From Blautia sp. (GTDB lineage Bacteria > Bacillota > Clostridia > Lachnospirales > Lachnospiraceae), in NCBI GenBank assembly GCA_017463155.1, contig JAFTPT010000005.1, positions 1-42,223 of the forward strand: a stretch of DNA of 42,223 nucleotides. The letters run 5' to 3'. This document shows, piece by piece, positions 17,159 through 28,424 of the stretch. Below the pieces are notes generated by a model. The model did not search any database. It saw only the letters and a program-made list of their open reading frames with translations, and was not told the DNA's origin. Made by a program: the position numbers and the translations under genes. How positions within the stretch are numbered: the stretch's first letter is position 1; every line of letters starts with the position of its first letter.

Positions 17159-17200
17159 AAAAAACCAGCCTTTCCTATACATCGTAAGATCAGCTTCATC

Positions 17201-17380
17201 CTTGAAAGAGCAGGTCTTCTGACTGGAGGTCATCATCCGCGGCCGCCTTCCCGCTTACGCAGTGGCATCGAAGGCAGCGGACTCGCTCATACAGCGGCGG
17301 GACCGTACCGGAATCGCACCGGTTTCCCTTTTACTCCTGTATGCCGGCACGGCAGCTGACATCCAGGAGACTCTTTCAAG
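17201..17380 (-). promoter_or_regulatory. Cobalamin (B12) riboswitch ahead of the Dpp/Nik-type operon
   Basis: On the - strand a complete AdoCbl-type aptamer. The closing helix P1 is CTTGAAAGAG pairing with CTCTTTCAAG (plus-strand 17371-17380 and 17201-17210), a perfect 10 bp. Inside are the conserved GGGAAACCGGTGCGATTCC and GGTCCCGCCGCTGT (17290-17328), GCCACTG (17260-17266), GGGAAGG (17246-17252) and the B12 box AGTCAGAAGACCTGC (17210-17224). No intrinsic terminator lies between it and the start codon 43 bases on, so translational control is more likely. Known class; its use on a peptide/nickel-type transporter is the interesting point. Confidence 0.93.
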
Positions 17381-17404
17381 TTATCAACTATAAACTATAT
17401 ATTT

Positions 17405-20191: not shown

Positions 20192-20207
20192 CATAAGTGC
20201 ATAAACA

Positions 20208-20401
20208 GTCACAGTGCCCGGCATGGCGGTGAACCATGCCGGGAGAATAGAGAATCACGTGAGAATCGTGAACGGTACCGCCGCTGTATATACGATGGAC
20301 ATTCCGGGCGAAAGCCGGTCATTGGGAAAACGAGAAGGCATGGGATGCTCCGAAGGAAACGTATTTTCCGGAAGTGTATGAGTCAGAAGAACTGCTGTGA
20401 C
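20208..20401 (+). promoter_or_regulatory. Cobalamin (B12) riboswitch ahead of the btuFCD-like operon
   Basis: The outer helix P1 is GTCACAG (20208-20214) pairing with CTGTGAC (20395-20401). Next comes a 10-bp hairpin CCCGGCATGG/CCATGCCGGG (20217-20243), then the conserved core AGAATCACGTGAGAATCGTG and ACGGTACCGCCGCTGTA (20251-20288), TCATTGGGA and GAGAAGGC, and the B12 box AGTCAGAAGAACTGC (20381-20395), with one change from the commoner AAGACCTGC. A terminator follows, so control is likely premature termination when B12 is bound. No obvious promoter was seen between secA and the aptamer. Confidence 0.9.
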
Positions 20402-20469
20402 GATATAACCCAGGACCGGGCGGAATATCCGGGAGAGGGTGCTTTTATGCTGCATAAAGAGAACGGATG

Positions 20470-25500: not shown

Positions 25501-26769
25501 TTATGACCAGATAAACCAGATGTACAGATATCCGACCAGCACCGCAGTCAATGTGTAGGGGATGCCGATCCGCATGAACTCCTTGAAGGAAACGGCATAG
25601 CCTTCCTTTCGCAGCATACCGGTCGCGGTGATGTTCGCAGACGCGCCGATCGGTGTGATGTTGCCGCCTAGGGTCGCGCCGGACAGCAGTCCGAAATACA
25701 GAAGATACGGCTCCGTTCCAAGTGATGCTGTCACGGCTGTCAGGACTGGAAGCATCGTCGCCACATACGGAATGTTATCAACAAAGGCCGAGATCGCGAC
25801 GGAACCCCAGACGACGATGGTATACAGCAGAAAGAGGTTGTTTCCACCGAATCGTACGATCAGCTTTGCAAAATCATCGATGATGCCCACGTTTGTGAGG
25901 CCGCCGATCACGATGAACAGGCCCGTAAGAAGCCCAAGGGTCTCGAAGTCAAGGCTTTTGACGGCCGCGATTGCGCTGTCCGACTTTTTATGCTGGATCA
26001 GATCAAGCAGAACGGTGATCACCGCCAGTACGCAGCAGATCATCCCGTTGATCGTCGAAGGTGTATTGGGGATGAATGAAGCCGTGATGAGCGCGGCCAC
26101 CATGAGGAGCAGCATAACGGTAGGTACATAATTGCTGACCGGAGTCCTTTCTTTTGAGGAGACCGGCGCCGTATCCTTACGGAACAGGAACATCATCACC
26201 GGAATGGTCGCAAGCGCGCCGAGCTCCACGGCAAAAAAGATTCCCGGCCGTCCCTTCATCCAGAAGAAGTTCATGAAATTCATGTTCGCGAAGTCGCCGA
26301 GCATGATGGAGGTCGTATCCCCGACCAGAGTCGCTGCTCCCTGCAGATTCGAAGAGACCGCGATCGAGAGGATCATGGGGACCGGACTCATCTTGAGCTT
26401 CCGGCAGATCGCCATGCCTACGGGAGCGACCATCAGAACGGTGGCCACATTGTCGATAAAGGCGGAGATCACTCCGGCAAAAAGCGACATCAGGATGGTC
26501 ACCCACATGACATTCGGGGACTTGCCCAGAAGAATATCCGCCAGAAGGTTCGGCATGCGGGAGTCAATAAAATAATACACGATGATCATGGTTCCCGCGA
26601 TCATCAGCAGTACATTCCAGTTGATCGTCGACAGCAGGCTGCCGATGGGCAGGATGCCCGTAACCAGAAAGACCACGGCCACCCCCAGGGCATAGAACGG
26701 CCGGTATTTCGGCTTCGCGATCATCAATACATACATCAGAACAAACAGGATCAAAGCGATTATTTTCAT
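25501..26769 (-). CDS. Ion-transporter-superfamily permease (ArsB/NhaD/CitMHS-like)
   Basis: 422 residues with about eleven to twelve hydrophobic segments in two inverted halves. Each half has the hallmark re-entrant region: FAGVISAFIDNVATVLMVAPV with SSNLQGAATLVGD in half one, and AFVDNIPYVATMLPVL with GATLGGNITPIGASANITA in half two. This is the pattern of the ArsB/NhaD/SLC13 ion transporter superfamily (Na+/H+ antiporters, anion permeases). The frame opens at 26931, but that part is the leader RNA; ATG 26769 follows AAGGAGAG. Control by a yybP-ykoY (Mn2+) riboswitch suggests a role in metal or pH homeostasis, perhaps Mn2+ efflux. Substrate not visible from sequence. Confidence 0.88.
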   Translation of the reverse strand: MKIIALILFVLMYVLMIAKPKYRPFYALGVAVVFLVTGILPIGSLLSTINWNVLLMIAGTMIIVYYFIDSRMPNLLADILLGKSPNVMWVTILMSLFAGVISAFIDNVATVLMVAPVGMAICRKLKMSPVPMILSIAVSSNLQGAATLVGDTTSIMLGDFANMNFMNFFWMKGRPGIFFAVELGALATIPVMMFLFRKDTAPVSSKERTPVSNYVPTVMLLLMVAALITASFIPNTPSTINGMICCVLAVITVLLDLIQHKKSDSAIAAVKSLDFETLGLLTGLFIVIGGLTNVGIIDDFAKLIVRFGGNNLFLLYTIVVWGSVAISAFVDNIPYVATMLPVLTAVTASLGTEPYLLYFGLLSGATLGGNITPIGASANITATGMLRKEGYAVSFKEFMRIGIPYTLTAVLVGYLYIWFIWS

Positions 26770-26791
26770 AGACTCTCCTTTCTCGTGCAAC

Positions 26792-26835
26792 AAAAAAGAG
26801 ACCTTTACCACAACCCATGCTGTGGTAAAAGTCTC
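26792..26835 (-). terminator. Riboswitch terminator before the permease
   Basis: On the - strand GAGACTTTTACCACA pairs with TGTGGTAAAGGTCTC (plus 26821-26835 and 26798-26812), followed by TTTTTT. It lies 23 bases before the start codon. Its 5' arm includes the UACC that closes the aptamer, so the two structures exclude each other. Confidence 0.9.
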
Positions 26836-26917
26836 GCTGCTTCGAACAAATTCCGGGGACGAACCCGTACTGACGAAAAATGTTGCGCAAAAGCGCCAGC
26901 TACTCCCTGATACCGCT
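26824..26917 (-). promoter_or_regulatory. yybP-ykoY (Mn2+-sensing) riboswitch
   Basis: The - strand leader reads, in order, GGUA (P1), GGGAGUAGC, a small hairpin (GCGC-UUUU-GCGC), AACA, CGUCAGUACGGG..CCCCGG, UUGUU, GCAGC, GAGAC and UUUUACC. This matches the known yybP-ykoY class segment by segment (GGGGAGUAGC, CGUCAAU.CG..., CCGG, ...UGUU, AGC, AAGACC), including the two metal-binding loops. The transcript probably starts a few bases upstream. Metal binding should stabilise P1 and prevent the terminator, so expression turns on with Mn2+. Confidence 0.9.
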
Positions 26918-26921
26918 AAAA

Positions 26922-26950
26922 AATATAACACAACAGACCATCCCCGTCAA
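26922..26950 (-). promoter_or_regulatory. Promoter of the Mn2+ riboswitch/permease unit
   Basis: On the - strand TTGACG (26945-26950), 17 bases, TATATT (26922-26927). Transcription would begin just before the riboswitch. Confidence 0.8.
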
Positions 26951-26999
26951 GACGGATTCCAATATAATGGAATATCGCTCACAGTTTAAAGTGTGGGAT

Positions 27000-27690
27000 A
27001 GGAAGGACGGACGCGGCCGAGGAGCGAAGATCTCTCTGCCCGCAAGGCCCCGGGCAACGGCTCGATGAACTAAGATCCAACTTCAACTTACAAAACGCTC
27101 AGCATGAGGCTTCGCGTTTTGAGTTTACGTAGGATCTGGATTTCATCTCGCCTAAGAGCGCCCTCAAAAGCCCTTGCTTGGAAGAGAGAATCTTTGCCCT
27201 CCCGGCCGCTGTCTCGTCCTGCCTCCACGAAAGCTTAATCGGTTCGCTCATAAGGTGTCGCAGCTCGAGACCAAAGCTATTTAGCAAGTGGAACGCTGCG
27301 CGTTCCAGGCCGTACGGAGAAGCGGCCCTCGTTCGGTTCCTTTCGTTTGCATTCTGGAACGCGCAGCGTTCCACTTGCCAGATAGCCCTGGCCGACAGCT
27401 GAGATCCCGAGCGAGCGCCGCCTGCCGCGTTGGGGGCGGATGCAGAGATATGCTGGCTGTGTAGGGCCGCTTCGCAGTCGACGCCCGGGATCGCGAGCAT
27501 AGCTTTATGCGCGGAGGCAGTCTTGGAACTCACAATCGCAGCACATTTCAGTACACTGGCATTTGTTCCAAGACTTTGCCGGGAGCGCATGATCATCAGC
27601 GGCGCAGCGATCCCAAGGAGACAAGCGTGGCCCGGCAGCCACATATCTCGTATATCCATCCCCCAAGCGGCATGCAAGCGAGCCCCCATA
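27000..27690 (-). ncRNA. Candidate large structured non-coding RNA (about 0.65 kb)
   Basis: No convincing gene lies between 26951 and 27764, yet the stretch is full of long helices. Perfect 25-bp arms at 27284-27308 and 27354-27378, extended by GCTAT/ATAGC across a 3x3 loop. An 11-bp pair at 27519-27529/27565-27575. GATCCCG/CGGGATC at 27403/27485. GCCGGG/CCCGGC at 27578/27631. GTCTCG..CTGC/GCAG..CGAGAC at 27211/27260. AGATCC/GGATCT enclosing CAAAACGC/GCGTTTTG at 27073-27137. GGCTCG (27059-27064) can pair with CGAGCC (27679-27684), closing the whole. A strong promoter (27690-27717) fires leftward into it. Size and style recall ROOL or GOLLD RNAs, but I cannot confirm a class. The open frames inside it look like chance frames. 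Confidence 0.6.
27284..27378. repeat. Perfect 25-bp inverted repeat inside the structured stretch
   Basis: 27284-27308 is the exact reverse complement of 27354-27378, with a 45-base loop. Each arm is itself nearly palindromic (GGAACGC-GCA-GCGTTCC), and the loop holds a further GGCCG/CGGCC pair. It is the longest helix in the window. Confidence 0.9.
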
Positions 27691-27717
27691 TAATAGATAT
27701 GTTTTCATTTTTGTCAA
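27690..27717 (-). promoter_or_regulatory. Promoter reading into the structured stretch
   Basis: On the - strand TTGACA (27712-27717), 16 bases, TATTAT (27690-27695). The first transcribed bases would be GGGGGCTCGC. It overlaps the opposing DUF1638 promoter. Confidence 0.65.
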
Positions 27718-27730
27718 AATCTGTTACAAT
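27702..27730 (+). promoter_or_regulatory. Promoter of the DUF1638 gene
   Basis: TTTTCA (27702-27707), 17 bases, extended -10 TGTTACAAT ending at 27730; 34 bases before the start codon. Confidence 0.55.
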
Positions 27731-27764
27731 GGTTCGTGATGTTTTTAAAGTGGAGGAGTTTTGT

Positions 27765-28424
27765 ATGAATGCAGTGATCCTTTCCTGCACCACCTTGCAG
27801 GATTATGTGCATGCCGCGCAGGTGGCGTGTCATACGTCTTTTCCGGTCGTGTGGCTGGACCGGTTTTATCATGTGGAGCCGCAGAGAATGCGGCAGCACA
27901 TCCTGGATACGATGGAGACGCTTCCGGAGGAGGTGGATACGGTCCTGGTGGCGATGGGCTTCTGCGGCGGCTCGTGGCAGGATGTCGTTTGTACACGGAA
28001 GGTGGTCATCCCGCGGGTGGATGATTGTGTGTCGCTGGTCATGACGACGTCGGAGGAGCTGAACCCCTGCACCAAGGAGATGGGGCATATGTATGTCTTC
28101 GGCGACGGGGACGAGGGTGGTTTTTCCATCGGAGGGATCTACGAAGGCCTGGTCAGGGAGCACGGGGAGGAGACGGCGGAGATCGTTTTTGATATGATGT
28201 TCGAGAACTACCGGAATGTGGACATCGTCGACACGGGTCTCTATGACTGCTATGATCCGGCGTTCGTCGAAAAGGTTCAGAAGGATGCGGACCGCATCCA
28301 CGCGGATCTTGATTTTGTTCCGGGCAGCAACCTGCTGCTGGAGAAGCTTGTCTCCGGGCGCTGGGACGAGCAGTTCGTGGTCGTCGAGCCGGGGACTAAC
28401 ATTACCCAGGGAACCTTTTTTTAA
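27765..28424 (+). CDS. DUF1638 family protein
   Basis: 219 residues of the DUF1638 type: ILSCTTLQDYV at the start, then VDTVLVAMGFCGGSW (about 65-79), IPRVDDCVSLVM, MYVFGDGDEGG-like lines, the YDCYDPAFVEKVQKDADRI helix, and VPGSNLLLEKLVSGRWDEQFVVVEPG at the end. Conserved Cys and Asp/His residues suggest metal binding. Families of this type are found, as I recall, beside MttB-type corrinoid methyltransferases, which would fit the B12 theme, but no methyltransferase is in the window. ATG 27765 follows GGAGGAG; the frame is open further back but that part is the promoter. Probably cotranscribed with the SNF transporter 69 bases on. Confidence 0.8.
   Translation: MNAVILSCTTLQDYVHAAQVACHTSFPVVWLDRFYHVEPQRMRQHILDTMETLPEEVDTVLVAMGFCGGSWQDVVCTRKVVIPRVDDCVSLVMTTSEELNPCTKEMGHMYVFGDGDEGGFSIGGIYEGLVREHGEETAEIVFDMMFENYRNVDIVDTGLYDCYDPAFVEKVQKDADRIHADLDFVPGSNLLLEKLVSGRWDEQFVVVEPGTNITQGTFF

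Follow-up and report, generated by a model that had tools for sequence, protein, structure and literature searches.

The described systems closest to the element reported here are the REP/REPIN repeats and the bacterial MITEs. REP hairpins are given a size of 21-65 nt and are described as not conserved between species (PMC6006769), and in the results reported for P. fluorescens 93% of 430 REP doublets were inverted (PMC3116915). The bacterial MITEs Correia/NEMIS, ERIC, RUP and CIR are described as non-autonomous, dispersed and mostly without an ORF, forming long stem-loops, with CIR made up of two hairpin arms plus a linker (PMC2229807). Among large structured RNAs, ROOL and GOLLD are reported to be linked to phages and tRNA islands (PMC12286853).

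The window analysed in this study is a 42,223-nucleotide stretch of a Blautia sp. contig. The genus Blautia and its relatives are common in the gut. At about 26956-27709 on the - strand, flanked by genes for a CitMHS-type transporter and a DUF1638 protein, the window carries one copy of a dispersed non-coding repeat. A first-pass annotation of the locus had missed this repeat nature. Its description of a large stretch with no convincing gene, possibly something new, is supported, and the structure proves to be conserved through compensatory changes in homologues; its suggestion of a ROOL, GOLLD or OLE member, of a locus-specific RNA gene and of a promoter belonging to it is not supported. The element probably represents a non-autonomous dispersed DNA element of giant imperfect palindromes, similar to an outsized REPIN or MITE and moved in trans as a single-stranded hairpin. 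The copy in the window combines three hairpins, of which A is species-specific, B serves as linker and C is widespread, with the following features:

26956..27709, - strand: whole repeat copy, with hairpins A, B and C in that order on the - strand; extent common to other loci of the same genome
27420..27684, - strand: hairpin A, with the model R2 core at 27453-27651; covariation within 12 copies
27245..27417, - strand: hairpin B (linker), inverted repeat I1, with a 25-bp perfect inner stem 27284-27308 / 27354-27378
27006..27219, - strand: hairpin C, member of the widespread family, with a foot of the GGAC...GTCC type; boundaries read by eye
27034..27178, - strand: model R1 core, the conserved part of hairpin C, with the tandem G.A near the apex
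27685..27703, - strand: A-side end, a weak version of TTCTAATTTAASGTATTAAATGG; aligned by eye
26949..26990, - strand: C-side end, TTTAAACTGTGAGCGATATT...
27690..27717, - strand: sigma-70-like match TTGACA-16-TATTAT, overlapping the A end, with its -35 in unique flank

Of the eight helices first quoted for this stretch, seven pair perfectly, either at the places proposed for them or very close by:

27284/27354: 25 bp, perfect
27519/27565: 11 bp, perfect
27211/27266: 6 bp, perfect
27578/27631: 6 bp, perfect
27091/27114: 8 bp, perfect
27073/27132: 6 bp, perfect
27059/27679: 6 bp, perfect

The eighth, a 7-bp helix placed at 27403/27485, does not form as quoted (three of seven bases pair) and is found one base on, 27403-27409 with 27486-27492; an inverted-repeat listing pairs 27403-27413 with 27482-27492 at 91%. 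Folding energy is -373.6 kcal/mol for the - strand (z -13.5) and -355.9 kcal/mol for the + strand (z -14.4); for neither strand did any of 20 shuffles reach so low a value. The helices are thus real and well outside what chance would give on both strands (z about -14), and the near-equal folding of the + and - strands in this stretch is as seen with DNA palindromes. Rather than nesting into a single fold closed by 27059/27679, as had been suggested, they form three giant hairpins in succession, at about 27006-27219, 27245-27417 and 27420-27684.

The earlier statement that the stretch holds no convincing gene was borne out. Protein coding was rejected, as the three ORFs tested in the window copy have no Pfam match, transposases included, and the longest of them (196 aa) aligns to other copies piecewise, with stops or gaps in many of the pieces. 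No ORF could be assigned by eye inside eleven repeat loci. The TTGACA-16-TATTAT promoter proposed for the stretch is a real match (11/12 positions), but it is not part of the repeat: exact TTGACA occurs in only one of the 17 copies of the A end, so that the match is taken as flank of the window locus, and since its -35 lies in unique flank it is not a property of the repeat family. Three more of these 17 copies have a one-mismatch TTGACA somewhere upstream.

Known RNA families were rejected on the basis of covariance-model searches. No Rfam family reached its gathering score in 26956-27709, and the Rfam models gave no match in 13 homologue loci. The comparison with the ROOL, GOLLD and OLE models that the first-pass annotation had recommended found none of the three at gathering score in the window, nor among the four weak Rfam hits up to E 10 in 26700-27800. 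The Mn2+ riboswitch named in the first-pass annotation was not matched in the RNA-family search either. Length, helical richness and number of helices are what the element shares with a ROOL, GOLLD or OLE-like giant RNA; against this identity stand the missing Rfam match, the dispersed repetition and the folding of both strands, and neither of the reported associations, with phages and with tRNA, was seen here, the whole window being free of tRNA genes. It is already contradicted, and we give it next to no credence. Carriage by phages was rejected as well, as no viral contig carried the one 20-base core pattern tested.

Outside the repeat, two cobalamin riboswitches lie above gathering score in the window, at 17192-17390 (-) and 20195-20413 (+). 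A leader with a strong terminator-like hairpin is located upstream of the CitMHS-type transporter gene at 26793-26911 (-), where the sole RNA-family match is SSRC10 (35.9 bits against a gathering score of 56, E 9e-5).

Searching the own genome with a 726-base query returned 61 matches, from which 36 genomic places were counted by hand, window included; the stretch is thus not a single locus-specific RNA gene. Copies occur as A alone, A+B, C alone, C-A-C and very short derivatives, and other copies hold different inserts at the position of hairpin B. At the loci examined in this genome they are located between called ORFs. Because several contigs start or stop within copies, longer forms may be missing. 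Among 40 relatives, a nucleotide match was obtained in one (G013).

The ends of the element recur in the own genome, which is what the searches for them covered. The A-type end TTTAASGTATTAAATGG has 10 exact copies elsewhere in it; these and three one-mismatch matches were the only ones used, because at up to three mismatches the pattern is found 21 times against 11 for the reversed control. The C-side end TTTAAACTGTGAGCGATATT has 11 matches with up to three mismatches (reversed control 0). Terminal inverted repeats are clear in copy L019, where matching inverted ends surround hairpin A, and weak in the window copy, and short derivatives retain the element ends. The recurrent ends, their inverted arrangement in L019 and the short derivatives speak for an ordinary terminal-inverted-repeat MITE, in which a DDE transposase would read TTCTAATTTAASGTATTA-type ends and the hairpins would be cargo. 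We consider such an element unlikely, as no gene-bearing copy in the own genome showed such ends, and as hairpin C, which has a foot of its own, is the part common to other species.

Among 64 genomes of the genus, hairpin A (R2 model search) was found in the own genome only and hairpin C (R1 covariance model) in 17, own included. In the family sample hairpin C was present in 27 of 397 genomes, own included, belonging to 25 of 334 genera, and in the class sample in one of 291, the own genome. Its distribution is patchy and multi-copy, which fits mobility, and another genome has at least 49 R1 matches. Because at most 49 candidates per genome were scored for the genus, 8 for the family and 10 for the class, under strict filters, these copy numbers are minimum values and absences should be read as soft. 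A 20-base core pattern was found in at least 116 stretches of named genomes, 80 of which were examined further; carriers among the matches listed include Blautia schinkii DSM 10518, Eubacterium plexicaudatum ASF492 and Hominisplanchenecus murintestinalis. The R1 model confirmed 71 of these 80 loci and did not match the other nine (L136, L144, L145, L148, L151, L180, L191, L209 and L210), and we take the Burkholderiaceae and Acidobacteriaceae records among the nine to be chance matches. The element is intergenic, an ORF of more than 200 aa spanning only one of 124 unique copies.

Compensatory changes in homologues, proposed at the outset as a check on the fold, are present in the alignments of hairpins A and C. 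Within the own genome, 12 copies of each hairpin were compared, and paired changes on both sides affect 13 of 53 pairs of hairpin A and 8 of 41 pairs of hairpin C; for hairpin A one of five control measures, that of further pair types, did not hold (17, with 19.2 in shuffles). In alignment A7, double changes affect 40 of the 41 pairs of hairpin C, with a covariation score of 0.613, compared with 0.180 for shuffles and at most 0.085 for slid versions; in A6 the figures are 38 of 41 and 0.416 against 0.123, all with the reservation that fitting to model R1 biases alignments A5-A7 towards the R1 structure. The apex is invariable in A6 because that alignment was picked by a fixed apex pattern, of which A7 is free.

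The R1 core comprises 144 model positions. At the apex of hairpin C a loop, usually of four bases, is followed by a 3-bp stem and a tandem G.A mismatch (GA opposite GA). Below this comes a helix and then, in many copies, an internal loop of ACGGAGACT opposite AGTCGCAGT; further outward follow another helix, the third of the conserved internal loops (in many copies ATCCAG opposite TTAG) and the long arms, of up to about 150 positions each. The foot recurs as ACA|hairpin|GTCC, GGAC preceding the hairpin on the opposite strand. ACA and GTCC are the motifs seen most often at the foot. Among 169 elements, 42 have GTCC after a maximal stem and 127 do not, which counts against the proposed reading; the joint ACA/GTC foot is seen in 30 of the 169, and the next joint combination in 8.

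The strong covariation, together with the conserved internal loops, could also be that of a dispersed structured RNA, whose hairpins would act after transcription, as the ends of mRNAs, as substrates of RNase III or as a non-coding RNA that carries tandem G.A motifs, the fold being selected as RNA. The core helix columns do lean to G.U on the ACA...GTCC strand, with G.U 95 against A.C 55 when six columns below 70% Watson-Crick are left out (these hold G.U 269 and A.C 19), and two further core pairs have ratios of 74 to 1 and 22 to 1. Wider core counts give G.T 275 against A.C 77 and, in another count, 380 against 169; they include positions fixed by descent, as do parts of the core-column count. 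These counts drew on unique copies in which an apex or anchor could be recognised, 116 of 130 hits for the 380:169 count and 163 of 172 rows for the core-column count. Since a folded strand of DNA likewise gains from a G.T wobble, the asymmetry names the strand that folds and not the molecule. Several observations argue against RNA. Mismatches in the outer arms have no strand preference (G.T 106, A.C 93, p 0.40), both strands of the window copy fold equally, and no Rfam family was matched. In 163 sequences G.U is absent from the six apical pairs, an absence that is partly forced by the A6 pattern but holds in A7 alone. Relative to the neighbouring genes, copies lie in mixed orientations (++ 42, -- 28, +- 13 and -+ 11, for the 94 of 124 copies with both neighbours called). 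We regard a dispersed RNA as rather improbable, and in our judgement DNA is favoured over RNA.

The arms of hairpin C vary between copies yet remain self-complementary. In 23 copies from the genome matching B. schinkii, median identity is 0.92 from arm to arm and 0.80 between copies, and an arm's best match is the other arm of the same copy in 18 of the 23. In two species of the genus, elements situated near the same gene, which is 80% identical in DNA between them, have quite different arms (L108 and L109); the insertion could be old and shared or have happened twice independently, and may reflect long retention rather than movement. Elements less than 1200 bases apart form inverted doublets in one direction, with 20 of 22 pairs in the order -+, two ++ and none +-. 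Replication slippage with template switching could produce palindromes with homogenised arms in the absence of any mobile unit, and tandem repeats are indeed commoner near elements (30 of 138) than in control windows (5 of 66; Fisher p 0.016). The conserved core and foot at many loci in many species and the one-way inverted doublets nevertheless call for the copying of a unit, which makes slippage by itself very improbable. In two loci the spacer between two inverted hairpins itself consists of tandemly arrayed units of 51 or 64 bases (L123, 737-1036 of the scanned stretch; L291, 677-1064).

One locus allowed a filled site to be compared with relatives lacking the element. At C16 a short A-type copy (L029) is situated at the end of a conserved gene, whose protein ends in ...EEMSEQNLI with the stop codon inside the element. 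In 11 of 14 relatives (three were left out, as another frame had been picked) the protein has ...EEMSEKSL or a similar sequence as its end, and the 117 bases that follow are not the start of the element. The empty site is not base-exact, and a target-site duplication is not established. No empty site was obtained at the window locus, where DUF1638 relatives were found in two of 30 other genomes with no usable synteny, or at C17, where the homologues are distant (best 28-34% identity).

Candidates for an associated enzyme were also sought. Y1 transposases were rejected as carriers: they occur in 10 of 17 element-bearing genomes of the genus and 30 of 47 others, the other seven genomes that bear elements give no Y1 match, and R1 has no match up to E 10 at seven loci where Y1 genes lie. 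A gene-bearing version between inverted hairpins was rejected, no recurring ORF being seen by eye in the ten loci listed, as was a recurrent neighbour gene, the largest ORF cluster being found in 17 of 106 loci at a median distance of 1188 bases.

From the fold and the dispersal, both directly observed, we infer for this palindromic DNA element a trans-acting enzyme and a single-stranded intermediate. The active form would be a single DNA strand folded in the ACA...GTCC orientation. A putative enzyme supplied in trans would recognise the conserved internal loops, including the tandem G.A, and might cut near the foot, by analogy with RAYT and its much smaller REP hairpins. Self-complementarity of the varying arms may be kept up by hairpin-templated repair that copies one arm onto the other, or pairing itself may be under selection. 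It is possible, and is suggested here tentatively, that these elements form a distinct class of mobile structured nucleic acid, namely hairpins of 150-300 nt with a conserved tandem-G.A core, moved as one folded strand by an enzyme that is not related to RAYT, with arms rewritten by hairpin-templated copying.

In being intergenic, multi-copy and hairpin-forming, with inverted doublets and a short foot motif, the element resembles REP/REPIN repeats as these are described in the accounts cited. It differs from them in being several times larger than a REP, the core alone having 144 positions; in its ACA/GTCC foot (GGAC on the other strand), where REPs have GT[AG]G 5' to the foot; in a core conserved across the family, REPs being described as not conserved between species; and in the absence of a cognate Y1 (RAYT) gene beside it in the seven Y1 loci examined. 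With Correia/NEMIS, ERIC, RUP and CIR, as far as they are described there, it shares the non-autonomous, dispersed nature, the long stem-loops and the lack of a transposase gene of its own. Those MITEs measure about 100-200 bp and the element roughly 200-1000, with no established target duplication and with a family-wide conserved core containing tandem G.A. No published description of such a giant hairpin repeat was found in the literature searched. The kind of element, REPIN/MITE-like, is thus known, and its size, conserved core, foot and missing enzyme are new.

Some genomes hold dozens of these elements, which are matched by no Rfam family. If the proposed reading is true, palindromic repeats can be several times the size of REPs, can keep an elaborate fold across a family and can spread without the known Y1 enzyme. 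Arms that drift in sequence and stay paired offer a natural test bed for hairpin-templated mutation. For those who read genomes the element is also a warning that strong folding and covariation alone do not prove an RNA gene.

A further palindrome was noted near the apex of hairpin C in five copies of the own genome's repeat (L032, L033, L034, L035 and L021), four of these inserted palindromes having a GGGACGGTTC-type core. Similar GGGGACGGTTC repeats are present in the B region of other copies, and such repeats may be REP-like.
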